Below, piece by piece: positions 2,128 through 50,856 of a stretch of DNA of 64,000 bases. This stretch comes from an uncultured Bacteroidota bacterium. Its GTDB lineage: Bacteria > Bacteroidota > Bacteroidia > Bacteroidales > P3. The stretch is taken from positions 1 through 64,000 of the forward strand of contig CADAQX010000007.1 of NCBI GenBank assembly GCA_902790215.1. Direction: 5' to 3'. The notes under the pieces are model-generated. The model worked only from the letters and a program-made list of their open reading frames with translations. It did not search any database and had not been told where the DNA came from. The translations under genes were made by a program, and so were the position numbers. Numbering within the stretch: the stretch's first letter is position 1; every line of letters starts with the position of its first letter.

Positions 2128-2270
2128 ATTCCCTTTTAATTATTGCTTGATTGTTTGATTGCTTGATTATGTTTTTGTTGATATGTTGATACGTTGATAT
2201 GTTGATATGATGCGAGCCGTATAAACTTATCAACTTATCAACGGACAACGATAAATGCGGCAGCAACTAA
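2128..2270. repeat. Short-repeat intergenic element with GTTGATAT and TTGATTGCT arrays
   Basis: The gap between the flippase and the IgGFc-type gene holds a nonamer array (about 2141-2168, TTGATTGCT/TTGATTGTT units) and an octamer array (about 2175-2208, GTTGATAT units). These are followed by a core around ATGATGCGAGCCG and then TTATCAAC units. The stretch 2235-2268, ending in TGCGGCAGCAACT, is repeated exactly at 28201-28234. The last ten flippase codons and its TGA (2238-2240) lie inside this shared stretch. Confidence 0.85.
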
Positions 2271-3840: not shown

Positions 3841-4043
3841 CCCTGCATGCGTTATTTATATTTTTTTAACACTCCACACCTGTTTCTTCCGCCAACCAAG
3901 GCTTCCTACACCGTCAACGTACAAATAATAACGCGCCGGCACGCGAATTATTATATCCCCATTATTATTTTGATTGCCCAATTCACAATATATAATAATT
4001 CTTAACAGCGGGTGCGGACCGTTGCAGAAATGTTTTTTTTTTG

Positions 4044-4051
4044 TATTTTTG
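4044..4051 (+). promoter_or_regulatory. Bacteroidota -7 box (TATTTTTG) for the GH20 gene
   Basis: The box matches TAnnTTTG, 15 nt before the ATG at 4066. A TTG lies about 19 nt upstream (4022-4024), consistent with the -33 element. Confidence 0.65.
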
Positions 4052-4065
4052 CAATTTGATTTAAG

Positions 4066-5928
4066 ATGAAACCCATTAGGAACATAAGCCTGGCTGTGGC
4101 GGCGGCGGTAGCGCTGCTGGTGGCCGTGTCGTGCGGAAAGAAAGTCGAGATTACAGACTACTCCATTATCCCTGAGCCCGAATACATGGTGCAGAAGGGG
4201 CGCACCTTCACGCTGACATCCTCCACAAGGCTGTGTTTCGAGAACCTCGGCCGCAACACCCCCACCGCCAAATACATCACCACCTCGCTGCGCAGGATGC
4301 ATGTGCGTCCGGCCTTCATCGGCTCGCCTTCTAACGACTGCATCATCTTCGCCCTCAACGACACGGTGAACCCCGAGCTGGGCAGCGAAGGCTATCTGCT
4401 TCAGGTCCGTCCCGAGGGCATTTTCATCAGCGCCAACAGCGAGACGGGTATTTTCTATGCCTTCCAGACTTTTGTGCAGATGCTGCCGCCCGACATCACG
4501 CAAACGACCTACAGGCGCATCACGCTGCCCGAATGCACCATCCTCGACAAGCCCCGCTACAGCTGGCGCGGAAGCCTGCTCGATGTGTGCCGCCATTTCA
4601 TCCCCGTGAAAGAGGTGAAACGCCACCTCGACCTGATGGCCGCCTACAAGCTCAACAAGTTCGTGTGGCATCTGGCCGACGACCAAGGCTGGCGTATCGA
4701 GTCGGAACAGTATCCGGCGCTCAACGACGTGGGGTCGTGGCGTGTCAACCGCTCCGACTACCCTTGGGGCAGCGCACCGCCTCCCGCCCCGGGCGAGGAA
4801 CCCACCTACGGCGGTTTCTACACGCAACGCGAGATTGCCGAGATAGTGGCCTACGCCGCCCAGCGGCACATCGAGGTCATCCCCGCCATCGAACTGCCCG
4901 GACACTGCAGCGCCGTTCTTGCCGCCTACCCTTCGCTCGGCTGCAGCGGACAGCCGTACACGGTGGCCGTGGGTCCCTGCTGGCCGCCCTCTGCCCTGCT
5001 CTGCGCAGGCAACGACTCCACACTCCTGTTCCTCGACAGCCTCCTCGACGAGATTTCGACGCTCTTCCCCTCCGAATACATCCACATAGGATGCAGCCAG
5101 GCATGGTTCGGCAACTGGGAGCAGTGCCCAAAATGCCAGTCCAGGAAGCAGCGGCTGCACCTCCGCAGCGAAGAGGAGCTGGCGGGATGGCTTGTCACCC
5201 AGGTCGCCGCACACCTTGCCCGCAAGGGGAAGAAGGTTATGGGCTGGGACGACATGATCGACTTCGGCACACCGCCGACCGACGCAGCGGTGACCGCCTA
5301 TCGGGGCGACAGCCTCACGGGCATTGCCCTGCGACTATCCTCAGGTGTGGTGGCGGCCCCGTCGCAGTGGTGCAACTTCGACACCTACCAGGCCGACACA
5401 GCCCACCACCCCACAGCGTTCCCGGGGCAGTTGACGCTGCGGCAAGTCTACAACTTCGACCCCATGCCTCCGGGCATACCCGCCGTGCTGCGGCCGCTGC
5501 TGTGGGGCGGCATGTGTGTGCTGTGGACCGACTACATCCAGACCTACCACCAAGCCGAATACATGCTGCTGCCGCGCCTGTGCGCCTTTGCCGAATGCCT
5601 GTGGTCGCCTGCCGACAGCAAGGACTGGGATCGTTTCCGTCACAAGACCGAGCAGCACAAAAACCGCCTTCAAGCCGAGGGCTACACACCCTGCCGGGGG
5701 TCGTTCAAACCCGTTGTAACCAAGACCGCCGACGGCAGCGCACTGATTGTCACCGTCACCACCGAAGTGGAAGGCACCTACGTATACTACACCACCGACG
5801 GCAGCGAACCCTCGCCCGAGTCAGCCCTCTACACCTCTCCCCTGCACCTGCAGCCAGGCACACTCCTGCGCACCCTCTCCCTCTACCACGGGCAGCCTCA
5901 AGAGAGCGTCTACGACTACCGCCTATAA
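4066..5928 (+). CDS. GH20-family (beta-hexosaminidase-like) lipoprotein lacking the catalytic Asp-Glu
   Basis: This 620-residue protein starts with a lipoprotein signal peptide (lipobox ending at Cys24, AVSCGKK). It has the GH20 N-terminal domain, the GH20 barrel and a C-terminal chitobiase-type domain (YYTTDGSEPS). Barrel landmarks are clear: RGSLLDVCRHF, WHLADDQGWRIE, VIPAIELPGH, GWDDM, LWTDYI. The motif that should read HIGGDE is HIGCSQ at residues 340-345, so the catalytic Asp-Glu pair is Ser344-Gln345. Other usual acidic residues are also changed (VIPEI to VIPAI, LWTEY to LWTDY). GH20 enzymes remove terminal GlcNAc/GalNAc by substrate-assisted catalysis that needs this pair, so the protein is probably a carbohydrate-binding pseudoenzyme or has another activity. 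The frame is intact and long, so it does not look like a decaying pseudogene. Confidence 0.88.
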   Translation: MKPIRNISLAVAAAVALLVAVSCGKKVEITDYSIIPEPEYMVQKGRTFTLTSSTRLCFENLGRNTPTAKYITTSLRRMHVRPAFIGSPSNDCIIFALNDTVNPELGSEGYLLQVRPEGIFISANSETGIFYAFQTFVQMLPPDITQTTYRRITLPECTILDKPRYSWRGSLLDVCRHFIPVKEVKRHLDLMAAYKLNKFVWHLADDQGWRIESEQYPALNDVGSWRVNRSDYPWGSAPPPAPGEEPTYGGFYTQREIAEIVAYAAQRHIEVIPAIELPGHCSAVLAAYPSLGCSGQPYTVAVGPCWPPSALLCAGNDSTLLFLDSLLDEISTLFPSEYIHIGCSQAWFGNWEQCPKCQSRKQRLHLRSEEELAGWLVTQVAAHLARKGKKVMGWDDMIDFGTPPTDAAVTAYRGDSLTGIALRLSSGVVAAPSQWCNFDTYQADTAHHPTAFPGQLTLRQVYNFDPMPPGIPAVLRPLLWGGMCVLWTDYIQTYHQAEYMLLPRLCAFAECLWSPADSKDWDRFRHKTEQHKNRLQAEGYTPCRGSFKPVVTKTADGSALIVTVTTEVEGTYVYYTTDGSEPSPESALYTSPLHLQPGTLLRTLSLYHGQPQESVYDYRL

Positions 5929-5934
5929 CACAAT

Positions 5935-6060
5935 TGTCCGATTGCTTGACGAATTGAGAGTTGAGAATTGAGAATTGAGAAAACCCTAAAGCCCTTCAAA
6001 CCCTTAAACCCTTAAACCTTAAAACCTTCCAACCCTAAAACCCTTCAACCCTCCAAGCAA
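5935..6060. repeat. Intergenic arrays of TTGAGAA and CCCTTAAAC-type units
   Basis: The gap between the GH20 and EamA genes begins with TTGAGAA-type heptamers (about 5955-5980). It continues with a run of about ten 8-9 bp units of the CCCTTAAAC/CCCTTCAAC kind (about 5988-6055). No coding potential is seen. Confidence 0.75.
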
Positions 6061-6989: not shown

Positions 6990-7080
6990 ATTGAACTCGT
7001 GAATTCGTTAATTCGTTAATTCGTGAGTCTTTGATGCGTCAAGGACTAACACATTAACACATTCACGCATTAACACATTC
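6990..7080. repeat. Repeat element with core GTCCTTGaCGCATCAAAGACT (copy 1)
   Basis: A core at about 7025-7048 can fold (AGTCTTTGA pairing with TCAAGGACT). It is flanked by TTCGTTAA units on the left and ACACATTA units on the right. The reverse complement of the core and one arm type recurs at 47101-47182. The element lies between convergent genes, so each gene meets an arm with stop codons. Confidence 0.75.
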
Positions 7081-7081
7081 A

Positions 7082-8154: not shown

Positions 8155-8179
8155 CTAAAAAAAATAAAAAGGCGTTACT

Positions 8180-8286
8180 TTTGAGTTGAGAGTTGAAAGT
8201 TGAGAGTTGAAAGTTGCTGCCGCACCCGGATAATTCTCAATTCTCAACTTTCAACTTTCAACTCTCAACTTTCAACTCTCAAAACA
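8180..8286. repeat. Heptamer-armed element with TGCGGCAGCAACT core
   Basis: Left arm: TTGAGAG/TTGAAAG heptamers (8181-8213). Core: AGTTGCTGCCGCA at 8212-8224, followed by CCCGGATAA. Right arm: TCTCAAT/TTTCAAC heptamers up to four bases before the ATG at 8287. The two arms are roughly complementary and could form a long imperfect hairpin. Confidence 0.85.
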
Positions 8287-9221: not shown

Positions 9222-9337
9222 GATTGCTTGATTGTCTGATTGCTTGATTGTTTGAGTATTTTTCACTCAAGCATTAACACAATCAAGCATTCAAGCAATA
9301 ATTTCAACTTTCAACTTTCAACTTTCAACTTTCAAAA
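9222..9337. repeat. Nonamer inverted-repeat hairpin followed by TTCAACT array
   Basis: A left arm of TTGATTGCT/TTGATTGTC units (9222-9257) is followed by a short spacer (TATTTTTCA). The right arm is complementary, made of CAATCAAGCATTCAAGCA-type units (about 9267-9300), giving a long imperfect hairpin. A run of TTCAACT heptamers (9302-9334) then ends four bases before the ATG at 9338. Confidence 0.8.
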
Positions 9338-10768
9338 ATGAACGCCCGAAAAGTCACAATCCGATACATCCTCCTCGACATCCTCAGCGCCATGACAGCC
9401 TGGGCCCTGCTGTTCCTCTTCCGGAAAATAGGCTTCGAGCACCTCCAGCCCGGCGACATCAGCCTCGTCTTCTCCGACACCAACTTCTGGCGCGGCATCG
9501 TCGTCGTCCCCCTCGGCTGGCTCGCCCTCTACACCATGCAGGGAACCTACAAAAACGTCCTCCGCAAATCCCGCCTCAAAGAGTTCCAGCAAACCCTCCT
9601 CGCCACAGTCATCGGCGTCGTCGTCATCTTCTTCGTCCTCCTGCTCGACGACCAAGTGGGAGCCTACAACAACTACTACCTCTCGCTCGTCTTCCTCCTC
9701 ATCATCCACTTCACCCTCACCTACGCCTGCCGCCTGGTGCAGACCTCCTCCATCGTGCGCAAAGTCCACAACCGCCAGATTGGGTTCCCCACCCTCCTCA
9801 TTGGCAGCCACCGCAAAGCCTACCAAACCTACCTCGACCTCGAAAACCAGGAAACCTACTCCGGCAACACCTTCGTGGGCTTCGTCACCGTCGACAGCCC
9901 CAACCCCACCCATGCCGAAAGCCGCCTCGCCGCCGTAATGCCCTGCATGGGCACCACCGACGACATCAGGCAGATCATCGCCGACCACCGCGTCGAAGAA
10001 GTCATCATCGCCGTGGAAGACACCGAGCAAACCCAAATCCAGCAAATCCTCCGCACCCTCGACGGCTGCGGCGAAGTCATCATCAAAATCACCCCCGATG
10101 CCCGCGACATCATCCTCGGCATGGTGCGCATCGACAGCATCTTCCACTCCCCCCTCATCACCATCAACACCCGCCTCATGGAAGAATGGCAATACAGCGT
10201 CAAACGCCTCTGCGACATCCTCTTCTCCATCCTCGCTCTCATCCTCCTCAGCCCCCTCTTCCTCATCACCGCCATCCTCGTCAAAACCACCAGTCCCGGA
10301 CCCGTCTTCTACGCCCAGGAACGCATCGGCTACAAAGGCAAACCCTTCAAAATGCACAAATTCCGCAGCATGTACACCGACGCCGAAGCCTGCGGACCCG
10401 CACTCTCGCGCGACGACGACCCCCGCATCACCCCCTTCGGCCGCATCATGCGCAAAGTGCGCCTCGACGAAATACCCCAGTTCTACAACGTCCTCAAAGG
10501 CACCATGTCCATCGTCGGCTACCGCCCCGAGCGGCAGTTCTACATCGACCAAATCGTCAAACGCTGCCCCGAATACCTCCTCCTCCAGCGCATCAAACCC
10601 GGCATCACCTCCTGGGGGCAAGTCAAATACGGCTACGCCACCACCGTCGACGAAATGTGCGAACGCCTCAAATACGACCTCCTCTACATGGAAAACATGT
10701 CCATCACCACCGACATCAAAATACTCATCTACACCGTCGGCATCATCTTCCAAGGCCGCGGAAAATGA
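9338..10768 (+). CDS. Undecaprenyl-phosphate sugar-1-phosphate transferase (WcaJ/WbaP-type)
   Basis: At 476 residues this matches the polyisoprenylphosphate hexose-1-phosphate transferase family. It has four N-terminal membrane helices, a Rossmann-like central region, then a re-entrant segment (LALILLSPLFLITAILVK). The cytosolic bacterial sugar transferase domain carries PVFYAQERIGYKGKPFKMHK, FRSMYTDAE, the RLDEIPQFYNVLKG motif and MSIVGYRPER. The enzyme starts assembly of lipid-linked surface polysaccharide by transferring a sugar-1-phosphate to undecaprenyl phosphate. The sugar is not predictable. Its stop codon TGA runs straight into TTGAGAA repeats. It probably cooperates with a flippase such as the one at 2238-3752. 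Confidence 0.92.
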   Translation: MNARKVTIRYILLDILSAMTAWALLFLFRKIGFEHLQPGDISLVFSDTNFWRGIVVVPLGWLALYTMQGTYKNVLRKSRLKEFQQTLLATVIGVVVIFFVLLLDDQVGAYNNYYLSLVFLLIIHFTLTYACRLVQTSSIVRKVHNRQIGFPTLLIGSHRKAYQTYLDLENQETYSGNTFVGFVTVDSPNPTHAESRLAAVMPCMGTTDDIRQIIADHRVEEVIIAVEDTEQTQIQQILRTLDGCGEVIIKITPDARDIILGMVRIDSIFHSPLITINTRLMEEWQYSVKRLCDILFSILALILLSPLFLITAILVKTTSPGPVFYAQERIGYKGKPFKMHKFRSMYTDAEACGPALSRDDDPRITPFGRIMRKVRLDEIPQFYNVLKGTMSIVGYRPERQFYIDQIVKRCPEYLLLQRIKPGITSWGQVKYGYATTVDEMCERLKYDLLYMENMSITTDIKILIYTVGIIFQGRGK

Positions 10769-10934
10769 ATTGAGAATTGAGAATTGAGAATTATCCGGGT
10801 GCGGCAGCAACTTTCAACTTTCAATTTTCAATTTTCAATTCCCAAGCAACTTTCAATTTTCAATTTTCAGCATCATATCAACATATCAACGCAAAACATA
10901 TCAACATATCAACGTATCAACAATCAACAACATC
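10766..10934. repeat. Composite heptamer/octamer element with TGCGGCAGCAACT core
   Basis: Starting at the transferase stop codon there are TTGAGAA heptamers (10770-10792) and the core ATCCGGGTGCGGCAGCAACT (10793-10812). TTCAACT/TTTCAAT heptamers follow (10810-10868), then ATATCAAC octamers (about 10874-10925), leading to the ATG at 10935. This is the clearest example of the stop-rich arm, core, stop-free arm layout. Confidence 0.85.
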
Positions 10935-11687: not shown

Positions 11688-12911
11688 ATGGACTCCAAAG
11701 AACATAGCAGAGCGAAGCTGAAAGCCATCCTCCACGACACCCACGTGTGGTGGAGCCTTGGCATTGCCATTGCCATACTCTGCCTCTGCTATCTCTTCAA
11801 CAACATAGCCTACTCTCCGCTGCTCTCCACCACCAAATACTCCATCTTCGAACCCTTCTACCGGGCCACCCACAACACCAGCGCCGACCTCGAAGATGCG
11901 GTCTTTGTCAACGTATCATATGACAAGATGCTCATCACCGACACCGTGGAAGTCCCCGACACCAACCGCAAGCGTGCCATCACCGACCGCAAGCGACTAC
12001 TTGACTTCCTGAAGAAAGTGGAGAACACCAACTACCGCTACCTGTTCATCGACATACGCTTCGAGCAGAACGAATGCTCCCCCTACGATTCCGCACTGAC
12101 CGAACAACTGCTCAAAATGCGCGATGCAGCAATAGCCAAGCACTGGGACATGGACAGCAACCGTCCCTACCCCATGACCAACAGCCGCATGGAGCCTCTC
12201 GGCTTCTACTGCGACTTCGATAATTCAAGGAGTAATGCAGGATTCTGCAAATACCGGTACCTACAAAACGGCGGCAACTCCATCGCATTGGAGATGTACC
12301 GGTACGAAACAGCACGAAGCATTACCCGGCACGGGCCGCTATACTTCGATGGCTGCAAACTTTGTCAGAATGCCCGTTTCCTCACCATCCACACCAGTAT
12401 GGAGAACGAATGCCAAGATGACTACGAGCAAAACTACTGGCACCTGCCAGAACTGCTCTTCGACAGCCTGTGCTGGAACAGCTTCCGTGACGACGTAAGT
12501 GGCAAATACCTAATCGTGGGCGACATGAAAGAGGACTTGCACGACACCTATGCCCACGCCCAGCCCGGTGCCTACCTCCACTACTTGGGCTTCAAATCGC
12601 TTATCAATGGCAAACACATCGTCCGATGGTGGTACGTGCTTCTCCTGCTGCTCGTCTACTTCTTTATCAGCTACACCACCCTGCAAGGACTGAGGAAAGA
12701 GGACACCCGCTGGCGACCTTTCCAATGGATAGCCCAACGGCCCCTCCTCCACTTCCTCTGCTCCCTCTTGGGCTACGGAGCCATACTCTTTCTGCTCTCC
12801 GCCCTGCTCTACCTGTGCTGCGACATAGCATACAATATCACAATACCGTCCTTTTGCTTTGCCCTGCTTAGCCATTATGTACAATTCAAAAGAATGAGGA
12901 ACACCGCATGA
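11688..12911 (+). CDS. CHASE2-domain membrane protein
   Basis: The protein has 407 residues. One membrane helix lies near residues 20-42 (WWSLGIAIAILCLCYLF). A periplasmic CHASE2-like sensor domain follows (FVNVSYDKMLI, FIDIRFEQNE with a downstream SALTEQL, then GKYLIVGDM, a DTYAHAQPGAYLH motif and LINGKHIV). Two to four C-terminal helices (about 305-400) complete it. CHASE2 is an extracytoplasmic sensory domain usually fused to kinases or cyclases; here no cytosolic output domain follows. The stop overlaps the start of the caspase gene by four bases (ATGA), so the two proteins are probably made together. I infer that it senses or anchors something for the caspase-Sel1 protein. The CHASE2 call rests on motif layout. 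Confidence 0.75.
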   Translation: MDSKEHSRAKLKAILHDTHVWWSLGIAIAILCLCYLFNNIAYSPLLSTTKYSIFEPFYRATHNTSADLEDAVFVNVSYDKMLITDTVEVPDTNRKRAITDRKRLLDFLKKVENTNYRYLFIDIRFEQNECSPYDSALTEQLLKMRDAAIAKHWDMDSNRPYPMTNSRMEPLGFYCDFDNSRSNAGFCKYRYLQNGGNSIALEMYRYETARSITRHGPLYFDGCKLCQNARFLTIHTSMENECQDDYEQNYWHLPELLFDSLCWNSFRDDVSGKYLIVGDMKEDLHDTYAHAQPGAYLHYLGFKSLINGKHIVRWWYVLLLLLVYFFISYTTLQGLRKEDTRWRPFQWIAQRPLLHFLCSLLGYGAILFLLSALLYLCCDIAYNITIPSFCFALLSHYVQFKRMRNTA

Positions 12912-14959
12912 AACACTTCTTACCCTGCATTACCCTATTCCTGATGCTGGCAACTTCTACCCATGTCATGGGGCAGGACACCTACGAAATCCTGCGCATC
13001 TACAATGCCGAAAGCATCACCATCGGCAACCGCCCGAAGAAAGTCGGCGACACCTTCAAATCCACCGACCAAATCGTCTTTCCAAACGACCGCCAGAGTT
13101 TCAAAGCACAGAAAAAAGGCACCTCAAAAGCTTACTACTTCAACAAAAAGGCCATGGAGGCCAAAAAGTCCAAGACGCTGAAGGACTATTTTGCCAACGA
13201 CTACAACAAGACCAAAGGCTCCACCCGTGGTGAAACACGCAACACACTTGCCATCAATCAAGGAAAGTATGATGTCAACAAATATCCTGAAAAACGTATC
13301 GCCCTCGTCATTGGCAACGGCAACTACCAAGAACTGGACATACTGCCCAACGCCATTAACGATGCCCGCGACGTCTCCGACCGTCTGAAGCAGTTAGGCT
13401 TCGATGTGGCAACATTATACGACGGTGATATCTACGACATGCTAACCACCGTCGACTCATTTTTCACAGTGGCACAAAGCTACCAAGTTGCGCTCATCTA
13501 CTTTGCCGGACACGGCATCCGCTACGAGGGAAAAGACTACCTGCTCTCCGTCGACAGAAAAGGCTTGGGTATAAAAGACGAATGCTCTTTAGAGTACCTG
13601 ATAGCCGAAAGCGAGAAATGGAAAAGCAGCGGCAAGGTAATGATATTTGTCATCGATGCATGCCGCAACCGTGCAGGCTTCGCCAACGCTGGCGACAACC
13701 GAGCCATTGAGGCCAAGAAAGGCACCGCCATCCTCCAGTCCACCTCTTCGGGCGAAGTAGCAATGGATGCCGATGCGGGAAGTGGCAACAGCCCCTTTGC
13801 CTCAGCCTTTATCAACAAAATAGGTCAGACTGGCGACGACCTCGAAGAAGAATTCTTAGACATCCGCCGAGAAGTAAAACGAAAAACATCCGACCGCCAA
13901 GTACCACGCACCTCACTCGGTGGCGGCTACGATTTCCATTTCTGCAAAGGATGCAACACACACTCCTCTCAATCCAAAACACAATCAACTCCTATTCCAA
14001 CACAAAACAACAACCCTTCAACCAATAAAGAAACGACAACATCCAACACCACACAAATAGAAACATCCACCGCTGAACATTCTTCTGAATACTATCACAG
14101 AGGAAATGAAGAATATAAAAAAAAGAATTACACTGAAGCCGTCAAATGGTACCGTTTAGCCGCTGAACAAGGACATGCTAAAGCTCAATATAAACTCGGG
14201 GAATGCCACGCCAAAGGTCTTGGAGTTCTTCAATCCCATACAGAAGCTATAAAATGGTTTCGATTGGCAGCCCAACAAGGGAATGATAATGCTCAAACAA
14301 TCCTTGGTTTTTATTATGAACAAGGAGAATATATTTCACAATCCCAAACCGAGGCAATTAAATGGTACCAACTTGCCGCCAATCAAGGCAATAAAATTGC
14401 CCAATATCTGCTTGGCGTATACTATGATCAAAAGCAATCTTGGACAGATGCTATAAAATGGTATAAACAGTCAGCAAACCAAGGTTACGCGAATGCACAA
14501 AACAATCTTGGCACTTGCTACAAAGAAGGGAAAGGTGTAACTAAATCTGAATCTGAAGCAATTAAATGGTACAAATTAGCTGCTGATCAAGGATATGCTG
14601 AAGCCCAATACAATCTTGGAGAGTACTATTACCATAGTTCTGGGATTAGCCATTACTCCAAAGCAGCAAACTGGTATAAATTAGCTGCCGAACAAGGTCA
14701 TGCCAAAGCTCAATGCGCCCTCGCTTTCTGCTATTCGTCAGCGAAAGGTGTCAAAGCATCCTATAGCGAGGCAGCAAAATGGTTTCGATTGGCAGCCGAA
14801 CAAGGAGACGCTACTGCCCAATATAATATAGGTAAATGCTATTTGTACGCTATAGGTGTACCACAATCTGATTCCGAGGCGATAAAATGGCTTCGCCTGG
14901 CTGCCGATCAAGGTGAAGAAATGGCAATATGGGAACTTGAAAGGAGAGGACTTTTATAA
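12908..14959 (+). CDS. Exported caspase-fold (C14) protein with eight Sel1 repeats
   Basis: This 683-residue protein has an N-terminal signal peptide (cleavage near THVMGQ, residue 22) and a short beta domain. The caspase/metacaspase domain (about residues 118-345) has RIALVIGNGNYQ, the catalytic His202 in YFAGHG and catalytic Cys252 in VIDACRNR; their 50-residue spacing fits the C14 family. A Ser/Thr/Gln/Asn-rich linker (about 355-395) follows. Then come eight Sel1-like TPR units marked by KWYRLAAEQG-type motifs to the C-terminus, a likely protein-interaction solenoid. The Sel1 part (from about 14090) is visibly AT-richer than the caspase part. Both catalytic residues are present, so it should be an active protease with Arg/Lys or Asp preference unknown. 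Translation is coupled to the CHASE2 gene. Confidence 0.9.
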   Translation: MKHFLPCITLFLMLATSTHVMGQDTYEILRIYNAESITIGNRPKKVGDTFKSTDQIVFPNDRQSFKAQKKGTSKAYYFNKKAMEAKKSKTLKDYFANDYNKTKGSTRGETRNTLAINQGKYDVNKYPEKRIALVIGNGNYQELDILPNAINDARDVSDRLKQLGFDVATLYDGDIYDMLTTVDSFFTVAQSYQVALIYFAGHGIRYEGKDYLLSVDRKGLGIKDECSLEYLIAESEKWKSSGKVMIFVIDACRNRAGFANAGDNRAIEAKKGTAILQSTSSGEVAMDADAGSGNSPFASAFINKIGQTGDDLEEEFLDIRREVKRKTSDRQVPRTSLGGGYDFHFCKGCNTHSSQSKTQSTPIPTQNNNPSTNKETTTSNTTQIETSTAEHSSEYYHRGNEEYKKKNYTEAVKWYRLAAEQGHAKAQYKLGECHAKGLGVLQSHTEAIKWFRLAAQQGNDNAQTILGFYYEQGEYISQSQTEAIKWYQLAANQGNKIAQYLLGVYYDQKQSWTDAIKWYKQSANQGYANAQNNLGTCYKEGKGVTKSESEAIKWYKLAADQGYAEAQYNLGEYYYHSSGISHYSKAANWYKLAAEQGHAKAQCALAFCYSSAKGVKASYSEAAKWFRLAAEQGDATAQYNIGKCYLYAIGVPQSDSEAIKWLRLAADQGEEMAIWELERRGLL

Positions 14960-28124: not shown

Positions 28125-28256
28125 AATTTTTATTTTTGTATTGTTTGATTGCTTGATTGTGTTTTTGTTGATATGTTGATATGATGCGAGCCGAATAAAC
28201 TTATCAACGGACAACGATAAATGCGGCAGCAACTTTCAATTTTCAACTTTCAATTT
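28125..28256. repeat. Composite octamer/heptamer element between DUF1599 and BT_3928 genes
   Basis: It contains TTGATTGCT units (28140-28158), GTTGATAT units (28168-28182) and the ATGATGCGAGCCG core. The exact 34 bp block 28201-28234 is shared with the flippase 3' end (2235-2268). It ends in TTTCAAT heptamers up to the DUF1599 stop codon. Read in the transcription direction, the arm after DUF1599 is stop-rich and the arm before BT_3928 is stop-free. Confidence 0.85.
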
Positions 28257-28820
28257 TCATTTTTCCAGTCTTATCAGGCAGAACAGCGAATAGTTGATGA
28301 TGTCGGTGTAGCCGCCTTCCACTCCTTCGGAGATAAGGGTCTGTCCCTGATGGTCCTCAATCTGTTTGATGCGGCGAAGTTTCATCAAAATCAAATCGAC
28401 CATGCTGCTCACCCGCATCATGCGCCAAGCCTCGCCGTAGTCGTGGTTCTTGTCCATCATCAGCTGGGCGGCGCGGTTGATATGCTTGTCATACAGTTCC
28501 AGGGCGCGCTCCACCGTCAGATCCTGTTCTTCGTCGGGTCCCAGTTCCTGCTGTATCAGAGCCATGACAGCATAGTTCACCATTGCCACAAACTCCGGTT
28601 CTACACCGTCGCCCACCCGGTTCTCGCCGCTCTCCTGGATGCTGCGGATTCGGTTGGCCTTGATATATATCTGGTCGGTCAGCGACGGCAGTCTCAACAC
28701 CCGCCACGACGTGCCGTAGTCACGGGTCTTCTTCTCGAAAATCTCCCGGCAACGGGCTATCTCGACCCTGAATTCTTCAGCCGTGCGGGATGACTGTTCT
28801 GTTGTTGTTATATTCTCCAT
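28257..28820 (-). CDS. DUF1599 domain protein
   Basis: The 187-residue protein contains two similar halves, each with a DYG(T/E)(S/A)WR motif (KTRDYGTSWRVLRLPSL and NHDYGEAWRMMRVSS) and a following D-Q/L-I hydrophobic helix. This duplicated motif defines DUF1599, proposed to relate to nucleotide modification; no activity is established here. The family is common beside BT_3928-type genes. The stop codon abuts the heptamer array. Confidence 0.88.
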   Translation of the reverse strand: MENITTTEQSSRTAEEFRVEIARCREIFEKKTRDYGTSWRVLRLPSLTDQIYIKANRIRSIQESGENRVGDGVEPEFVAMVNYAVMALIQQELGPDEEQDLTVERALELYDKHINRAAQLMMDKNHDYGEAWRMMRVSSMVDLILMKLRRIKQIEDHQGQTLISEGVEGGYTDIINYSLFCLIRLEK

Positions 28821-29099
28821 TCAGTTTTGTTTATTCCAGTTATTGAGAATTGGATTGAGGGTTTGAAGGTTAAAGGGTTTGAGGGTTTATATGTTGATAC
28901 GTTGATATGTTGATATGATGCGAGCCGTATAAACTTATCAACTTATCAACGGCATACAATAACACACTAAAACCTTTCTCCCCTAAAACCTTTCAGTTTT
29001 CACTTTTCAACTTTCAATTTTCAATCTAAACGCACTTTATGCTTTTTTATTGTTGTAACACAATTAAAAAAACAAAAATGCGTTTTTATGTCCAAACTG
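28821..29099. repeat. Repeat-filled divergent intergenic region (DUF1599 / folP)
   Basis: It contains GGGTTTGAA units (28856-28886), GTTGATAT octamers (28889-28917) and the ATGATGCGAGCCG core with TTATCAAC units (28916-28951). AAAACCTTT and TTTCAAC units follow (28970-29025). A minus-strand -7 box lies at its far edge. No gene is seen. Confidence 0.8.
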
Positions 29100-30029: not shown

Positions 30030-30184
30030 ACACAAACGACAATAAAAACAGCAACGACACGTTACCAAGTTAAATTAAAAATTGAAAAGTGAAAATTTGT
30101 TGACCTGTGGTGCGGCAGCAACTTTCAATTTTCAATTCTCAAACATTCAAACAATCAGACAATCAAACAATCAAACATCCCCCC
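30030..30184. repeat. Intergenic repeat element between folP and cdaA
   Basis: After AT-rich sequence it contains TGCGGCAGCAACT (30111-30123) and TTTCAAT heptamers (30122-30140). AATCAAACA/AATCAGACA nonamers (30148-30178) follow, ending near the cdaA ATG at 30185. Confidence 0.8.
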
Positions 30185-30988
30185 ATGTTCCCATTTCCTG
30201 AAATCCGCTTTGTAGATATTCTAGACATTTTCCTTGTCGCCCTGCTCGTCTACGAGCTGTACCGCATGCTGCGGGGCACCAACATCATACGCATTTTCTG
30301 GGCACTGCTGATCATGTACATTGCCTGGCGCATATTCGACATGCTCAACATGCGGTTCTGCAGCCAGATACTCGGCGGCATCATGAGCATCGGGCTCATC
30401 GCTCTGGTCATCGTCTTCCAGCCCGAAATCCGCAAGTTCCTCCTCATGGTGGGCACCAAGACACAGCTCACAGGCGACACCCTGGCCAAGCGGCTGCGGT
30501 TCTGGCGCAGCGACGTCGACAAACACAAAGGAGTCGATTTCGAGCCCTACATCCAAGCCTGCATGCACATGTCGCAGAGCAAGACCGGCGCCCTCATCAT
30601 CTTCAAGCGCGCCAACGAAGTGGAGGAGCTGGTGCGCACGGGCGAAGTGGTGAATGCCAAGGCCTCCTCCGCATTGCTCGAAACACTCTTCTTCAAGAAC
30701 TCCCCCCTGCACGATGGCGCCGTCATCGTCAGCGGCAACGAGATTTTGGCCGCCCGCTGCATACTACCCGTCACCTCGCGCACCGACATCGACCCCAACC
30801 TGGGTCTGCGCCACCGCAGCGCCATCGGCGTGACGGAACAGCTGGATGTCATCAGCGTCATCGTCTCCGAAGAAACCGGTGCCATCTCCTACGCCCTTGA
30901 GGGAGAAATACACCACGACGTCACCCCCGTCCAGCTCCGCCACGCTCTGGAAAAATACATCGGCCAGACCGGAGCAGTTGAAAGTTGA
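30185..30988 (+). CDS. cdaA: Diadenylate cyclase CdaA
   Basis: This 267-residue membrane enzyme begins at ATG 30185 (MFPFPEIRFVDIL); an upstream ATG at 30107 lies in the repeat element and is rejected. Three N-terminal helices precede the DAC domain with GALIIFKR, HDGAVIV (the DGA motif) and RHRSAIGVTE (the RHR motif). It makes cyclic di-AMP, which controls osmolyte transport and envelope balance. The last three residues (VES) and the TGA are written in TTGAAAG/TTGAGAA heptamers, so the repeat array sets the C-terminus. Confidence 0.94.
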   Translation: MFPFPEIRFVDILDIFLVALLVYELYRMLRGTNIIRIFWALLIMYIAWRIFDMLNMRFCSQILGGIMSIGLIALVIVFQPEIRKFLLMVGTKTQLTGDTLAKRLRFWRSDVDKHKGVDFEPYIQACMHMSQSKTGALIIFKRANEVEELVRTGEVVNAKASSALLETLFFKNSPLHDGAVIVSGNEILAARCILPVTSRTDIDPNLGLRHRSAIGVTEQLDVISVIVSEETGAISYALEGEIHHDVTPVQLRHALEKYIGQTGAVES

Positions 30989-31043
30989 GAATTGAGAATT
31001 ATCCGGGTGCGGCAGCAACTCTCAACTTTCAACTCTCATCCCG
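30977..31043. repeat. Heptamer-armed element with ATCCGGGTGCGGCAGCAACT core
   Basis: It overlaps the 3' end of cdaA. TTGAAAG/TTGAGAA units are followed by the core (31001-31020) and TCTCAAC/TTTCAAC units to about 31038. Confidence 0.85.
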
Positions 31044-31383
31044 CTGCAAAATTACACATCTTGTTATTGTCCGGCGCATAATCCTACCTCAACCCGCCTC
31101 GACATTCGTAAAAATACCAATAAGAGTCGTCAAACCGACTTTACAGGCTTTTAGTTCCCCGTTATTCCCATGCCCACGAACTAACGAACCCACAACTCCC
31201 AGCTTTCAACTCTCAATTTTCAACTATGTCGTTAAGACATTGTTGTACCGTTCTTTATGCACTTTATATCATATCCTTTTCCCATCGTTTTCCCCTCCGG
31301 AAAGGGAAACAAAAGGGAAACAAAAGGGAAACAGATCGAATAAATGACGACGTTACTACGACGCCACGAAGTTTGCAGAGCGG
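31044..31383. repeat. Dispersed palindromic (MITE-like) element, copy 2
   Basis: It is collinear with 15384-15715: CGCTGCAAAATTA end, ATTCGTAAAAATACC, GACTTTACAGGCTTTT, palindrome centred on CCGGAAAGGGAAA, AATAAATGACGACGTTACTA, and a TTTGCAGAGCGG end. A few TTTCAAC/TCTCAAT heptamers (31204-31226) are inserted in the middle. AAACAAAAGGG is triplicated in the right arm. Confidence 0.75.
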
Positions 31384-31387
31384 ATGT

Positions 31388-31458
31388 TTGATAATTGAAA
31401 GTTGAAAGTTGAAAATTGCTGCCGCACCCGATCAATTTTCAATTTTCAATTTATAAAA
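31388..31458. repeat. Heptamer-armed element at the left edge of the tandem duplication
   Basis: TTGAAAG units are followed by TTGCTGCCGCACCCG (31418-31432) and TTTCAAT units. It is followed by a terminator hairpin that recurs at the matching point of the second unit. Confidence 0.8.
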
Positions 31459-31520: not shown

Positions 31521-32251
31521 CTACTTGACGATAAGTTTGCGCACAACCGAATGTTGTTCAGCGGCAATGCGTACAAAGTAGGCACCCTGCGCCAGGTCGG
31601 AGACGTCCAGCACCAGGCGGCAGTTGCCGTCGCATCCGATGCTGCGCGACAGCACTTTTCGACCTGTGAGGTCGGACACCGTAACCTCCACGGCGCCCCG
31701 ATACTCCTTAGGCAATCCTTCAATATACAAAGTAGCCACACCCTTAGCCGGATTGGGGGTAATTGAAAACTGAAAATTGTAAGTTGAGTGTTCGGTGTTT
31801 TGTATCCCCACCGGCTGGCGGGTGGCGACATTGAGAAGGCTGGCGTATTCGCCTGCCACCCAATCGTCGGCACAGCGCGTGCGCAGATAGAAATCGTATG
31901 TCGTGGCTGGATTCAAGCCCACAACCACGCAGCTATTGCCCGACACCATGCTGTCGGCGCCTTCGACGGGCTCGAAGCCCGCAGGGCCGTATTGAAGCAG
32001 GTAGTCCTGCGCCATCGTATCGGCATCCCACACTAACGACACGGAGGTGGCGGTGACCCCCACAGTGTCCAACCCCCGCACAGCGGGGCAGGCTGTGGTG
32101 GTGAATCTTTCCTCGTTGCTCCACTCTCCCGCTATCTGTCCTTCGCTGCCGCAGTAGCCGCGGACTCGGGCGAAGTGTTCCGCACCGGGAGTAAGGCCTT
32201 CCACTGTGTATGGACGCTCGGTGACAGCGTAACCAGTCGAAGGTGGCGGTG
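31521..32251 (-). pseudogene. fn3 surface protein A, 3' fragment with T9SS sorting domain
   Basis: This is the third reading frame of a broken gene that starts at 36146. From about 32251 it encodes part of an fn3 domain (YAVTERPYTVEGLTPG), another fn3 domain (CPAVRGLDTVGVTATSVSLVW) and the linker NTEHSTYNFQFSI from the heptamer array. It ends in a T9SS type A domain (TPNPAKG..GAYFVRIAAEQ). Relative to paralogue B there are 19 extra bases at 32233-32251, which put it out of frame with the middle fragment. The frame is open further upstream (to 32441), but that part is not fn3-like. Without the upstream frames it lacks a signal peptide and could not be exported. Confidence 0.82.
31761..31790 (-). 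repeat. Heptamer array in the linker of gene A
   Basis: Degenerate TTGAAAA/CTGAAAA/TTGTAAG units (plus-strand view) encode the HSTYNFQFSI linker before TPNPAKG. Confidence 0.75.
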
Positions 32252-34101
32252 TTGTGTGTGATGTCAAAGACATACAAGGTGTCGGGGGCAGGACATAGGA
32301 ATGTGTCGGTAGTGTATTCGACGGTGACCGGGTCGGAGTAGCCAAGACTGTCGGCCGTGCAGTTTTGCCACAAGGTGACATGGTAGGTAGTGGCAGGCTG
32401 CAAGCCGGTGAAAGTATAGCTGTTACCACTGACAGGCACATTGACAGCGTAGCCGGGACTTATGTTGATCTGATACTCGCTGCCGGTGCCGCTCCAGGCC
32501 ACGGTGATTGACTCGTGGTCGGCGACAATACTGTCGATGGTTGGAGGCGCGCAGAGGGGGAGAGCGCAGGTGTTGGTAAAGAGGCGCATGTCGCCTAAGA
32601 TATAGGTGCCATAGCTGCTGTAGTAGGGCGAGGCATAGGTGCGTGCGCTGTCGATGTCGATGGGGTTGTAGCCCGCAATGATGTAGCCGCGGTTGATATT
32701 GTTCACAATGTCGGAGTAGCGATAGTGGCCTGCATACTCGGTCCGCAATCCGCTGCCGCCGTCCTGCCGCAGCACGGCGACGAGGAGGTTTTGGCGACCG
32801 TCCCACATAAAGGGGCGGTCGAAGCTGAAGAGCTGCCAGTCGGTGGTAGCCCCATGGCTGAAGTTGGCCGAGTCTATCACCTTCACAAAGCGGTGCCCGC
32901 CATCGGGCAGCAACGGCCCGACGGTGAAGGCAGTGTCCGGCACATTGGCCAGATAGACGCTGATGCGTCCCTGATGGTCGGCGGCGATGTAGTCGGCCGG
33001 GCGGAAGGCCAATGCCGTGATGCCGCCCTCAAGGCCTGCCAGGTGTGCCGAGTCGATGAGGGTTTGCACATAGCTGTAGGGAGTGCCGTTGAAACCTATC
33101 GGCATGTTCGGGGTGGTGTTTTCCCAGAGGGTGCTGTCGTAGTTCTCGCGGTAGACGGCATCGTCGCACAGCTGGGTGGAGAAGACTCCGCTCACCCACT
33201 CGCCCGTGTCGCCCGCACCACAGATGCTGCGCACCCGCACCTCGCGGCGGTCGAGGCTGCCAAGTCCGGCAATGGTGTAGTGGTTGGTCGTTGTGCTGTC
33301 GGTGGCGCCGCTACCCGGGGCAAAACCCACAGGGCCGTATTCCACTTGGTAGTGCGACGACCCGTTGCACTGCCAGGTGAGGGCAATTGTCGAGTCGCTG
33401 GCTGGCACCGTGGGGTCGAGCCGCAGGTCGTGGACGATGCAGGTGTCCGGCACACAACTCACTTGGAGCGCAAAGCCTTCGTAGGTATAGAATGCTGTTG
33501 AGCCGCGGAACTCGAGGGTCAGCGCACCAGTGGAAGAGCGGATGGGGCCGAGGTTTATCGTGTAGTTGTTGTTGAGGCCCGTGGTCCAAAGCACAGGACC
33601 CGTGGTGCCCACTCCGTCGTAGATAGTGAGTGGCGAGCCGCCGCCGCAGTGGGAGTAGCCACTGATGCTGACGAGATGGCCGGGCATGTCGGGCAGAAGG
33701 ACTAACTGGGAGTTCTGATAGCTGAAGTCGCCCGTCGGGCCACCATTGTCGTACAGGCTCACGCCGCACATGGTGAGGGTATCGTGCTTGTTGGCGCGCA
33801 TGTTCCAGGTGCCAGGCACCACCTGCATGGGGCCTTCCCAGCCCGAGGTGTCGCCCTTGGGGCAGATGGCACGTACCCATACGTAGTAGGGCATTTCCGA
33901 TACCAGTCCGCTGAATGTATAGGTTGGCGAGGTCAGCACGGTGGTGCCTGCCAGAGGCGTTGCGGTGGCAGAGCTGTCGATAAAGACCTGCCACATTGTG
34001 CCGCTGTCGGCGGCATCCCACCCCACCGTTACCGAGGTGGCGGTGAGACCCGTGAGGGCCATTCCCGTCACACTCGGGCAGGGGGGAACCAATTCGGGCA
34101 A
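31933..34101 (-). pseudogene. fn3 surface protein A, middle fragment
   Basis: This second frame of gene A encodes 722 residues, coherent down to about 32251. It starts with an fn3 domain (TGLTATSVTVGWDAA), then a CUB-like/beta-sandwich domain, more fn3 units (LTWQCNGSSHYQVEYG) and a module with SYVQTLIDSAHLAGLEGGI. It ends with ITHNTATFDW, the start of another fn3 domain. Beyond that point the translation is off-frame. It has no credible start: the first codon is TTG, directly after the tract of six C (plus-strand G, 34081-34086) where the first frame is lost. It aligns throughout with the intact-frame part of gene B (36442-38991). Confidence 0.82.
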
Positions 34102-36146
34102 CTCAGGATGACAATATTTCTACCCATGCCGCGATAGGAGGAGAGTGGCACGTCGTAGCGGCTCCATTCTTCGCCCACTATGTCAATCGTGTCCACTAAC
34201 TGGAAGGTGGTGTCCACCGCAGGGTCGTCCATCACGCCCACCAGCACCCGGGCAGGGTCGTAGCGGTTGAATGTATTTTCCACGTTCTTGGCCCAGAAGG
34301 AGAGCTGCAACGTATTGATGGGCAGCACTGCCGTGTTGATGGTGGGCAGGACAATCTTTTGGTCGACCACAGCCTCGTATATGCTCCACTCGAAGCGCAT
34401 CACCTTGCTGCCCGAATGGGCATCGCCCGGCAGGTTGGCAACCAAGGTGTTCAAGGACACCGTTCCCTGCCAGCAGGGTATGACAGTAGGATGTGTGCCA
34501 ACGGCGTAGGTTTCGAAATCCTCAACCAATGGCAGCGTATCCATGAGGCTGCAGAGTGTACGGAACGTCATTACTGGCGACCAGTGAGTGGTGAAGCTGC
34601 CGCACTCGGGCCGCACGTAGACATCGTATTGTGTGTAGGGCAGCAGGCCCGTAAGCAGCAGGCTGTCGGTACGCACATCGGTAACTATGGTTGTAGAATC
34701 TGGCACAAAGCCCGCCGGGCCGTAGGCCACATCGTAGTACACCGCCCCCGCCGTGTCGGTCCAGCGCACCAGTGCCGCCGTGTCGAGTTTCCAATCGACG
34801 GTTGCCGGAGCCAATGCCTCGCAGGGCACAATGTGGCTCACATCTATGTCGTCGATGTACAGCCATGTGTTGAGCGGGTCGGCGGTGACGATGGCCAGTC
34901 TTCCCGACGAGCGGGGATAGCGGCTGGTTCGTACTGACGCCGACACCCAGTCGGCAGATCTGGGCACTGCCACGGTGTCTAAAGGATAGAAGGTGGAGAG
35001 GTCCAAGGGGTCGGTCACCATGCCCACATAAAGGTTGCGGATGGAGCCACCGTTGCTCTTGGCCCAGAAGTACAGCTCCAGGCTGTCGGGCGAGGTGTTG
35101 AAGGCCGGAAGCACCACTGCGCCGCCCTGAAGCCTCACCGACCTTGTGGCAGAATGGCTGTAGCTTGAATTAATGCCGGGCATGGTTCCTGCCGCGCCCG
35201 CTATGGTATTCCAGCACGAGGGCACCTGCCACGAGCCCTCAAAGTTCTCGCTATAGGGAAGTGGCGAGTGGGTGCAGTTGGTGAGTACATGCTTCATGAC
35301 CGTAGTGAAGGTGTCGGTGCAAAAAGCGGTGAGACGGAAAAAGTAATGTGTGTTGGGCGAGAGGCCTGTCATGGTGTATGCTGTGTCGCCCCACAGCAAG
35401 CCACTGCTGCGCCTGGCGGTGTCACCATCGGCAATGCATTCCACTGTCCAAGAGGTGTCCTGGTAGCCGGGGCTCCAGCGCAGGCGCACAGCATCGGAGC
35501 CTAAGGAGTCGACCCACACCACCGGCGCCGGACAGGTGGCAACCGGAGTTGCAGGCTGTGTGTGCAGACGCATGATGTTGCGGTAGGTTGTGGCGGTGGA
35601 GGAGGTATTTTGGGTGATGGATGCAATCGGGAAGTCGCTGTAGCGTGCCCGTCCCTGTACATAATCAGTGTTGAACGAGCTGCCGCCCCTGCCCCACGGA
35701 GCATCCACGGCCACCACCAGATTGCCGGAACCGAAGTAGTGGAACGGGGTGTCGAATGCATAGTGGTTCCACCCTGCTGTGCAGGCCAGCGAGGTGACAG
35801 CCACCGCCTGGAACGTGGCTCCATAGGGCACCATATTGTAAAACAAATCACTCGCAAAAGTGTTGGCAAGATAGATGGTGCAATTGGCCCGGCCAGTACT
35901 GGTAGGCTGGTAGCAATAGAAGTCGATGCCTGTAATTATCGCCTCGCCATTCATCTCGCTGGCCAACACCAACTGCTGTGTGCAGCCGCTATTCATCGCT
36001 TGGTAAGGGATATAGAAACTGCCGGAAGCGCCCATGGTTGTGGTGTCGCCAATCAGCACAAGGCTCGCCCCCGGAGACTGGGCCTCTGCTACCCAAGGCA
36101 GCGCAAAAGCCACCAATAGCAGCCAAAGTGAAATGTGTTTTTTCAT
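34068..36146 (-). pseudogene. fn3 surface protein A, 5' fragment with signal peptide
   Basis: This first frame of gene A (692 residues) starts with a signal peptide (cleavage after VAEA, residue 22). It has the opening domain SLVLIGDTTTMG, an fn3 domain (PAPVVWVDSLGSDAVRLRWSPG) and two MAM/choice-of-anchor-J-like modules (LPYSENFEGSWQVPSCW; DTLPLVEDFETYAVG). It ends off-frame in CPNWFPPARV. Removing a 20 bp insertion flanked by repeated TGCCCGA would join ILSCP directly to SVTGMALTGL in frame, so one continuous T9SS protein of about 1,500 residues is the likely ancestor. The insertion includes the six-C tract. Assembly error or phase variation could also explain the break. Confidence 0.85.
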
Positions 36147-36227
36147 AATTCCAATTTTTTAGTTAATACTATAATGTCTAATTCATCCTTTTCCATATGC
36201 ACCGGATGGTGCGTCTTCACTTATACT

Positions 36228-36259
36228 TATAAGAGTCGAAAGATGCGTTTTGGTTACCC
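36228..36259 (-). promoter_or_regulatory. Candidate ECF-type promoter motif upstream of gene A
   Basis: On the minus strand it reads GGGTAACCAAAA, then TTTCGACTCTTATA, 82 nt before the ATG at 36146. It matches the blocks before the flippase and gene B. Confidence 0.5.
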
Positions 36260-36304
36260 TTGCACCCCGATATTTAACATCATTTAACAAGAAAACCACA
36301 ATAT

Positions 36305-36380
36305 GAATGGAGAATTGAGATTTGAGAATTGAGAATTGGCTGCCGCACTCGGATAATTTTCAATTTTCAATTTATAAAAG
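36305..36380. repeat. Heptamer-armed element between the tandem units
   Basis: TTGAGAT/TTGAGAA units are followed by GGCTGCCGCACTCGGATAA (36335-36353) and TTTCAAT units. Confidence 0.8.
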
Positions 36381-36415
36381 CCACAAGGGGTGGCGCTGTG
36401 TGCGTCACCCCGTGG
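36381..36415 (-). terminator. Terminator of fn3 gene B
   Basis: CCACAAGGGGTG pairs with CACCCCGTGG; on the minus strand it is followed by CTTTTAT. It is homologous to 31460-31494. Confidence 0.7.
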
Positions 36416-36441
36416 TGTCAAAACGTAGTTGTCATGCAAAA

Positions 36442-41035: not shown

Positions 41036-41112
41036 AACATGTGAAAATGTTTTTAAAATGTGTTGTTGTATCATTTTTTCAGCCCGGTGGCCGGGTAAAA
41101 ACCGGTTTTTCC

Positions 41113-41144
41113 TATAAGAGCCGAAAGATGCATTTTGGATACCC
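41113..41144 (-). promoter_or_regulatory. Candidate ECF-type promoter motif upstream of gene B
   Basis: On the minus strand it reads GGGTATCCAAAA, then TTTCGGCTCTTATA, 78 nt before the ATG at 41035. It is the third copy of this motif in the window. Confidence 0.5.
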
Positions 41145-41199
41145 TTGCACCCCGATATTTAACATCATTTAACAAGAAAACCACAATATGAATGGAGAA

Positions 41200-41285
41200 T
41201 TGAGATTTGAGAATTGAGAATTGGCTGCCGCACCCGGATAACTCTCAATTCTCCATTCTCAATTCTCCATTATTAACACAATCCG
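41200..41285. repeat. Heptamer-armed element downstream of the 1628-residue fn3 gene
   Basis: TTGAGAT/TTGAGAA units, GGCTGCCGCACCCGGATAA (41223-41241), then TCTCAAT/TCTCCAT units up to nine bases before the stop codon at 41293. It marks the right edge of the tandem duplication. Confidence 0.8.
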
Positions 41286-41292
41286 GTAATCA

Positions 41293-50620: not shown

Positions 50621-50856
50621 GAAAGCACATTGAGGAACGTTAGGGACAAATATGCGACAATAACGGAACGTTGAGGAACGTTGGCGTAATCCATCACAGA
50701 ATAAAAAGTAAATTCCGCGCGAAGCGGCAGAATGCAAAGAAGAGGTAAGAGATAAGAACCAGGATTGTATGCAACAGTTCCTGGCTCTTAGTTCTTACCT
50801 CTAAACTCGAGTGGGGTAGCCCGCTTCCTGTTTATTAATCAGAATGACGGAGTCAC
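50621..50856. other. Gene-free region with TTGAGGAACGTT repeats and a long hairpin
   Basis: TTGAGGAACGTT occurs twice (about 50629-50640 and 50671-50682). An imperfect hairpin at 50741-50802 pairs AGAGGTAAGA..TAAGAACCAGGA with TCCTGGCTCTTA..TCTTACCTCT. It has no T-tract, so it is not a standard terminator. No gene is seen. Confidence 0.6.

Follow-up and report, generated by a model that had tools for sequence, protein, structure and literature searches.

The gap between a sugar-transferase gene and an FKBP-type isomerase gene in this uncultured Bacteroidales genome holds two arrays of heptamers, roughly mirror images of each other, on either side of a short core. The element begins at the stop codon of the sugar-transferase gene, and the direct arrays that trail it run up to the ATG at 10935, where the isomerase gene starts. 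What is this element, and by what process has it been repeated? We analyzed the window (the whole stretch of 64,000 nucleotides), the 2.98-Mb genome to which it belongs (G000), and relatives from the same genus, to which the other G-numbers refer. At slightly better than an even chance, we think that these are small non-autonomous palindromic elements of about 65 to 110 bp whose way of working resembles that of Rickettsia palindromic elements (RPE) or MITEs.

Cores, arms, and layout

All nine loci named in the initial annotation as carrying a 13-bp core or a close variant do hold the 13-mer TGCGGCAGCAACT: it is exact at 2256, 8212, 10800, 28222, 30111, and 31008, has one mismatch at 31414, and has two at 36335 and 41220. 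With up to two mismatches, it matches the window 15 times, compared with a mean of 2.64 and a maximum of 7 in 100 shuffles. The genome search that had been proposed returned 42 exact places versus none for the reversed control, so the core is not rare elsewhere. The core is longer than the 13-mer, either TTATCCGGGTGCGGCAGC (type A) or AATTTGTTGACCTGTGGTGCGGCAGC (type B), each standing between a heptamer array and an inverted array, of heptamers in type A. Type A was found at 65 places with up to three mismatches (reversed control, 3) and type B at 18 (control, 1); with 6 others, these make up the deduplicated G000 set, which is both dispersed and high in copy number. Coordinates within the window are collected in Table 1.

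Table 1. Repeat elements and nearby features of the window
Feature	Position	Strand	Details
Octamer palindrome with 13-mer	2173..2268	+	(GTTGATAT)n - GATGCGAGCCG - (TTATCAAC)n, then 13-mer at 2256-2268
Heptamer array running into octamer array	5946-6052		AAACCCT/AAACCCTT octamers, resembling the telomere type
Octamer palindrome	6991..7081	+	(TTAATTCG)n - TTTGATGCGTCAAGG - (TTAACACA)n; many matches in relatives
Type A element	8179..8283	-	Arms GAGTTGA/TCTCAAC
Octamer palindrome	9222..9303	+	(GATTGCTT)n - TTGAGTATTTTTCACTCAA - (CAAGCAAT)n; at most 96% identical elsewhere in relatives
Type A element	10764..10848	+	(GAATTGA)n left, core TTATCCGGGTGCGGCAGC at 10791-10808, (AACTTTC/AATTTTC)n right
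Trailing direct arrays	10849..10930	+	Heptamers, then CATATCAA octamers; reach ATG at 10935
Protein-coding gene	12908-14959		Caspase-like Peptidase_C14 domain and Sel1 repeats
Octamer palindrome with 13-mer and right heptamer array	28167..28265	+	13-mer at 28222-28234
Octamer palindrome	28884..28952	+	Family of 2173-2250; 99% identical to a G021 place
Type B element	30071..30144	+	Core TTGTTGACCTGTGGTGCGGCAGC, arms GAAAAGTG and TTTTCAA
Type A element	30975..31040	+	
Perfect 11-mer repeat	31301-31333		AAAGGGAAACA, three units, adjoining the element at 31387
Type A element	31387..31457	-	Core end TGCGGCAGCAATT
Gene series with fn3	31521-46179		Por-secretion-tail domains in 2 of 4 scanned
Type A element	36304..36378	-	Core end TGCGGCAGCCAAT
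Type A element	41189..41273	-	Core end TGCGGCAGCCAAT
Period-7 palindrome	50741-50802		agaggtaagagataagaacca ... tggctcttagttcttacctct; center unrelated to the cores

The heptamer arrays said to flank the core stand on both sides of it, as inverted arms, at seven of the nine loci (8212, 10800, 30111, 31008, 31414, 36335, and 41220). At 2256 heptamers are absent and an octamer palindrome precedes the 13-mer; the 28222 copy has heptamers on its right side only, and an octamer palindrome on its left. That palindrome is the same at both loci, and the 36335 copy matches 31414 in its left flank and 41220 in its right, but the remaining printed flanks of the nine copies differ. A single segmental duplication is thus rejected as the whole cause and accounts for these parts only. 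Assembly collapse is also unlikely, because the core recurs with its arms in other assemblies of the genus. The mixed flanks of the 36335 element may mark the location of a recombination junction. Separately, a G000 subfamily (loci L001, L002, L018, L019, L034, L050, L061, and L120) carries the element within a longer repeated flank, for example gataaagaacgacgcaac on the left or atgttggggacaaatatgcgacac on the right, and is possibly a larger mobile unit.

Period-7 arrays flank both sides of 63 of the 83 G000 copies (48 of 65 type A and 15 of 18 type B), compared with 13 of 3,000 random window positions. Arms on both sides were likewise present in 35 of 38 copies examined in G053 and in 25 of 38 matches at loci L071-L095 and L226-L239, one of them from G053; the 10 of these 38 core matches in relatives that lack arms were treated as chance. 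A detector blind to the core found eight period-7 palindromes in the window, seven of which are core copies (the exception lies at 50741), and two period-8 palindromes; it found none in two Markov controls per period. When neighboring arrays of period 7 or 8 were paired, again without reference to the core, 28 of 62 pairs were inverted and 11 direct (10 versus 2 in the window; 18 versus 9 in other loci, which include L164 and L196 from G000 itself). Ninety loci around three genus genes (452,941 bases) held 13 period-7 palindromes and one period-8 palindrome, several with different cores; the three genes (L136-L225) were picked because one genome's copy bears an element, and 3 of the 14 palindromes are these query copies. 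The constant feature is the layout, and the cores are several: besides type A there is a second core, there are variant cores, and octamer palindromes have the same build. The constant layout of the initial annotation accordingly held across several cores and unit families, but its fixed core did not, as several cores share the layout and swap or invert at a single site.

The arms are inverted, and their folds are predicted to be stable. The fit between partner arms varied with the set analyzed. In G000 type A elements, own arms gave -27.0 kcal/mol versus -24.7 kcal/mol for swapped arms, and 4 of 5,000 permutations were as good; among 65 candidate partners, the own one had a median rank of 28. 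In type B, own arms were no better than swapped ones (1,951 of 5,000 permutations as good). In 17 copies from relatives, chosen by eye for arms out of the 25 loci L071-L095, the means were -29.8 and -21.7 kcal/mol, with 3 of 5,000 permutations as good, a coupling which may in part be due to species differences. Two proposed regularities of the arms were dropped: the absence of C from one arm and of G from its partner is not general (81 of 213 arrays), and a stop-free unit is not a special property, as 8,264 of 16,384 heptamers are stop-free in six frames. Loci L091 and L269 have a further palindromic piece in common, CCCCTCTTTAGAGGGG with ACCCCGGTCTTCGACC, beside or within the heptamer arms.

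The elements across the genus and at orthologous sites

Type A matches with up to two mismatches occur in 27 of the 59 genus genomes, some as single matches without arms that we took as chance. At this threshold, G000 and G053 each hold 54 copies and the next genome holds 8. Across relatives, the same core is surrounded by arms that vary by copy and by species yet are mirrored within the copy: GTGGAAA/TTTCCAC in G007, GTGGAGA/TCTCCAC in G019, TAAGAGT/ACTCATA at one orthologous site in G008 and G023, and TTCGGAA/TTCCGAA in one G015 copy, the other G015 copies having TTGARAA. Octamer elements are 94 to 99% identical to other places in relatives, and longer gene-spanning matches are about 64 to 87% identical. 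The 18-mer core was present, with up to two mismatches, in 0 of 16 order-level relatives. Spread beyond the genus was rejected: GGTGCGGCAGCAACTTTCAA matched two stretches in GTDB contigs, in a search that may omit the window's own genome, one without arms and the other with the flanks of a G021 locus. Carriage by phages was likewise rejected, as the three viral contigs that contain the 17-mer TATCCGGGTGCGGCAGC have no arms around it.

Several sites in the window are free of the element in relatives. At 8212, it is absent from all six comparable relatives, and the gap is 166 nt in G000 versus 77 to 78 nt. At 10800, the core is absent from six of six, with short heptamer arrays in G017 and G006. 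The octamer elements at 7000 (6991..7081) and 9222 are absent from six of six and seven of seven comparable relatives, respectively, and G017 has heptamers at the latter site. Elsewhere, similar arms enclose a core that has been inverted or exchanged for another. The 30111 site has core B in G000, an inverted core A in G053, octamer palindromes in G021, heptamer arms around a different core in G043, a heptamer array without a core in G006, and nothing in G017, G044, and G046. At L115, a B-like core in G000 corresponds to an inverted A core in G053 behind a nearly identical left arm, and in a glycosyltransferase gene G053 carries the A core reversed between similar arms. The octamer palindrome at 28222 is common to G000 and G021. 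No target-site duplications were visible in this comparison, which involved diverged relatives with one genome per species. Among the options raised in the initial annotation, the mobile and slippage-driven ones gain from these results: the multi-copy core, the empty orthologous sites, and the species-specific arms support dispersal and array turnover.

Copies inside genes were outside what the initial annotation could see. They reside in frame in conserved proteins: LeuRS (G007); PurL and CysRS (G012); TypA, LacZ, and a helicase (G015); RsgA (G052 and G072); an alpha-L-rhamnosidase (G041); HPPK (G000 and G006); a glycosyltransferase (G000); and an RlmI-like methyltransferase (G000, G021, and G043). 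By Pfam, a domain match continues through the insert in LeuRS (the editing domain), in LacZ, in the G000 copy of HPPK, and in the AAA_12 helicase; the RsgA insert comes after profile position 160 of 174 in the GTPase domain, and the inserts of TypA, CysRS, and the rhamnosidase are located between domains. Set against solved structures, the TypA insert puts 31 residues in place of about 5, and HPPK gains about 20 residues from its insert. In structure models built on 26 and 27 aligned rows of the 30 viewed, the inserts coincide with segments of low confidence: residues 97 to 121 of the RlmI-like protein have a pLDDT under 50 within an otherwise confident fold, and the HPPK blocks have means of 52 to 58 with the rest of the fold confident.

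In-gene copies occur in either orientation. A tandem TTGAGAA array of at least about 23 nt is computed to contain TGA in all frames, and several in-gene copies use TGGAGAA-type or GTGGAAA units instead, as an open frame requires. The rlmI copy keeps its whole right arm in G000, but G021 has a shortened one and G043 has lost it, which means that the hairpin is not preserved at this site; G018 has an orthologue naturally free of the insert. For each gene we viewed 30 loci, drawn from 40, 41, 39, and 57 genomes with matches. Among the 30 species viewed for HPPK, the loop holds the palindrome in 2 and one coreless heptamer-like array in 4. A second PurL site (L136, about 4018-4113; compare L137, L148, and L150) has inverted heptamer arrays around native-looking residues, so that arms may form without a mobile core. 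In other species, the PurL and LeuRS loops (L137-L195) contain low-complexity repeats, KDLKDLKDF or EPIKPIQPTKPIK, which suggests other tandem arrays in frame.

Gene orientation, folding, and possible origins

Relative to tandem genes, 27 of the 83 copies are co-directional and 20 run against; a further 16 lie between convergent genes and 8 between divergent ones, while 9 were assigned to the inside of a gene and 3 were undetermined. These counts come from a home-made gene caller, by which three of the nine in-gene calls are armless core matches and the HPPK copy was missed. The predicted folds are stable, as they must be for palindromes, with a median z of -3.31 and 59 of 83 copies below -2. 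Departures from complementarity between the arms, counted as G.T versus A.C, were 178 and 111 in G000 type A, 9 and 31 in type B, 34 and 38 in relatives, and 149 and 27 in G053, where alone the G.T excess is marked. By duplex energy, 54 of 100 copies favored the plus strand, 43 favored the minus strand, and 3 were tied. Selection on RNA structure was dropped as a lead on account of the mixed counts and the split strand preference; orientation, folding, and the G.T and A.C counts give an RNA role no general support. The RNA-level option of the initial annotation gains little, since copies take both orientations to genes and the departures give no consistent strand.

The preferred reading, of small palindromic elements behaving like RPE or MITEs, would account for these observations as follows. 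New copies would arise when a hairpin is copied into new places, and slippage would then lengthen, shrink, and alter the arm units. Hairpin-templated or inter-copy exchange could keep the arms roughly mirror-imaged, and the same exchange might also flip or swap cores. Copies would survive mainly where harm is small, in intergenic gaps and flexible protein loops, and no host benefit would be needed. Found between genes and at times in frame within essential ones, they have the appearance of small selfish elements by which proteins are remodeled. The absence of visible target-site duplications, the mismatch between Y1 transposase matches and copy number described below, and the decay of the right arm in rlmI count against this reading. 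Against it, too, stand the weak arm coupling inside G000 and the single, coreless, partnerless arrays in protein loops; the arrays in the HPPK loop and at the second PurL site count against mobility because slippage alone can make such arrays. These same observations speak for a rather unlikely alternative without mobility, in which arrays form in place by slippage (an idea cited for heptamers in the accessible text of PMC4692102), template switching at quasi-palindromes copies one arm across to the other, and gene conversion between arrays spreads the cores. The orthologous sites at which the arms stay alike while the core is flipped or substituted fit it as well. However, a core of 18 to 25 nt at dozens of places in two genomes needs a copying step besides slippage, as do the element-free sites in relatives.

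That the elements are ordinary MITEs, moved in trans by a known transposase and with terminal repeats turned into arrays, seems quite improbable to us. Size, copy number, and intergenic habit fit, as does the G000 subfamily with longer repeated flanks, but no fixed termini were seen outside the arms in the printed copies. Moreover, PF01797 (Y1_Tnp), the only transposase family searched, does not track copy number: it had no matches in G053, an 85%-complete genome with 54 copies, seven in G001 with no copies, and two in G000 with 54 copies. A RAYT/Y1 mobilizer was rejected on the same comparison. We give a similarly small probability to a modular hairpin system, in which cores would be interchangeable cassettes and some templated process, either copying primed by the hairpin or the action of a telomerase-like reverse transcriptase, would write a lineage-specific repeat on each of the two arms. 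Arm unit and core would then evolve separately, and the system would keep supplying essential proteins with in-frame loop inserts. RNA or DNA signals under host selection (terminators, mRNA stabilizers, or nucleoid sites, for instance) are very unlikely. The stable predicted folds and the G.T excess of G053 are in their favor, and an Rfam search of the window gave no matches at the gathering score, so that an undescribed RNA family is possible; nevertheless, the elements take both orientations to genes and either orientation inside coding genes, no G.T excess is common to all four groups, and sites 8212, 10800, 7000, and 9222 are free of the element in every comparable relative.

If the reading as RPE- or MITE-like elements is true, a genus of Bacteroidales has a system of palindromes that, like RPE, insert into proteins, and whose arms are changeable by design. 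Such a system would offer a natural experiment on the entry of new loops into essential enzymes, and would also inform arm likeness in palindromic repeats and the drivers of bacterial heptamer arrays. Because a single site can be full, decayed, inverted, swapped, or empty depending on the species, the mechanism is testable.

Comparison with known systems

REP/RAYT elements resemble the present ones in being short dispersed palindromes. To our knowledge, they lack tandem-repeat arms, and the Y1 (RAYT-type) transposase that accompanies them does not follow copy number here. As to the terminal inverted repeats and target-site duplications of MITEs, inverted arms are present, fixed termini were not seen, and the relatives are too diverged to show duplications. 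Protein-coding palindromes akin to RPE have reportedly been found in Wolbachia, and we know of no mover for RPE.

The initial annotation knew of no named bacterial family with this build. This holds only in part, as inverted heptamer pairs in Xanthomonas (PMC4692102) and in-frame palindromes in Rickettsia (PMC2229807, PMC10969869) are already in print, as far as the accessible text of these papers goes. A literature search covering few subscription journals returned no account in which common cores are combined with arms that change, cores that swap, and copies inside genes. The other systems below are compared on the accessible portions of the papers cited. BrickBuilt, a MITE of Porphyromonas gingivalis, is also from the Bacteroidales and also has tandem repeats within a dispersed element, but its repeats are 23-nt direct ones with a leader and tail, and its copies are 84 to 991 nt long and always intergenic (PMC4596501), whereas here the arrays are inverted, with units of 7 or 8 nt, and copies lie inside genes. 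The TAACTGA heptamers likewise form intergenic arrays, some of them in Bacteroidetes; those described are direct repeats of one unit, with one indirect case, and lack the palindromic core layout (PMC4679880). Like BrickBuilt and the TAACTGA repeats, PARCELs (PMC2996958) differ more from the present elements than either RPE or the Xanthomonas heptamers do.

The inverted GGGAATC heptamers of Xanthomonas form neighboring inverted pairs, 70 in Xcc and 75 in Xac, mostly intergenic, in both orientations, and seldom between divergent genes (accessible text of PMC4692102). Here, too, neighboring arrays are more often inverted than direct (28 versus 11 of 62 pairs), and the spread over gene orientations is similar. 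The Xanthomonas units are of the G-rich, quadruplex-forming GGGANTN type, whereas units here such as TTGAGAA, GTGGAAA, and TTCGGAA have, by reading, no three-G tracts; the accessible text describes no common dispersed core, core swap, or in-frame insertion in named essential enzymes.

The closest likeness in behavior is to the Rickettsia palindromic elements, which in the accessible text of PMC2229807 and PMC10969869 are small palindromes of several families, found both between genes and in frame in conserved genes; here, too, a multi-copy palindrome also resides in frame in conserved genes. Target duplication is marked with a question mark for RPE in the table of PMC2229807. RPE are 105 to 146 bp long and belong to families of fixed sequence, as far as these sources describe them, whereas the elements of this genus have heptamer or octamer arrays as arms, which vary by copy and species, and a core that inverts or is replaced, and their hosts are Bacteroidales.
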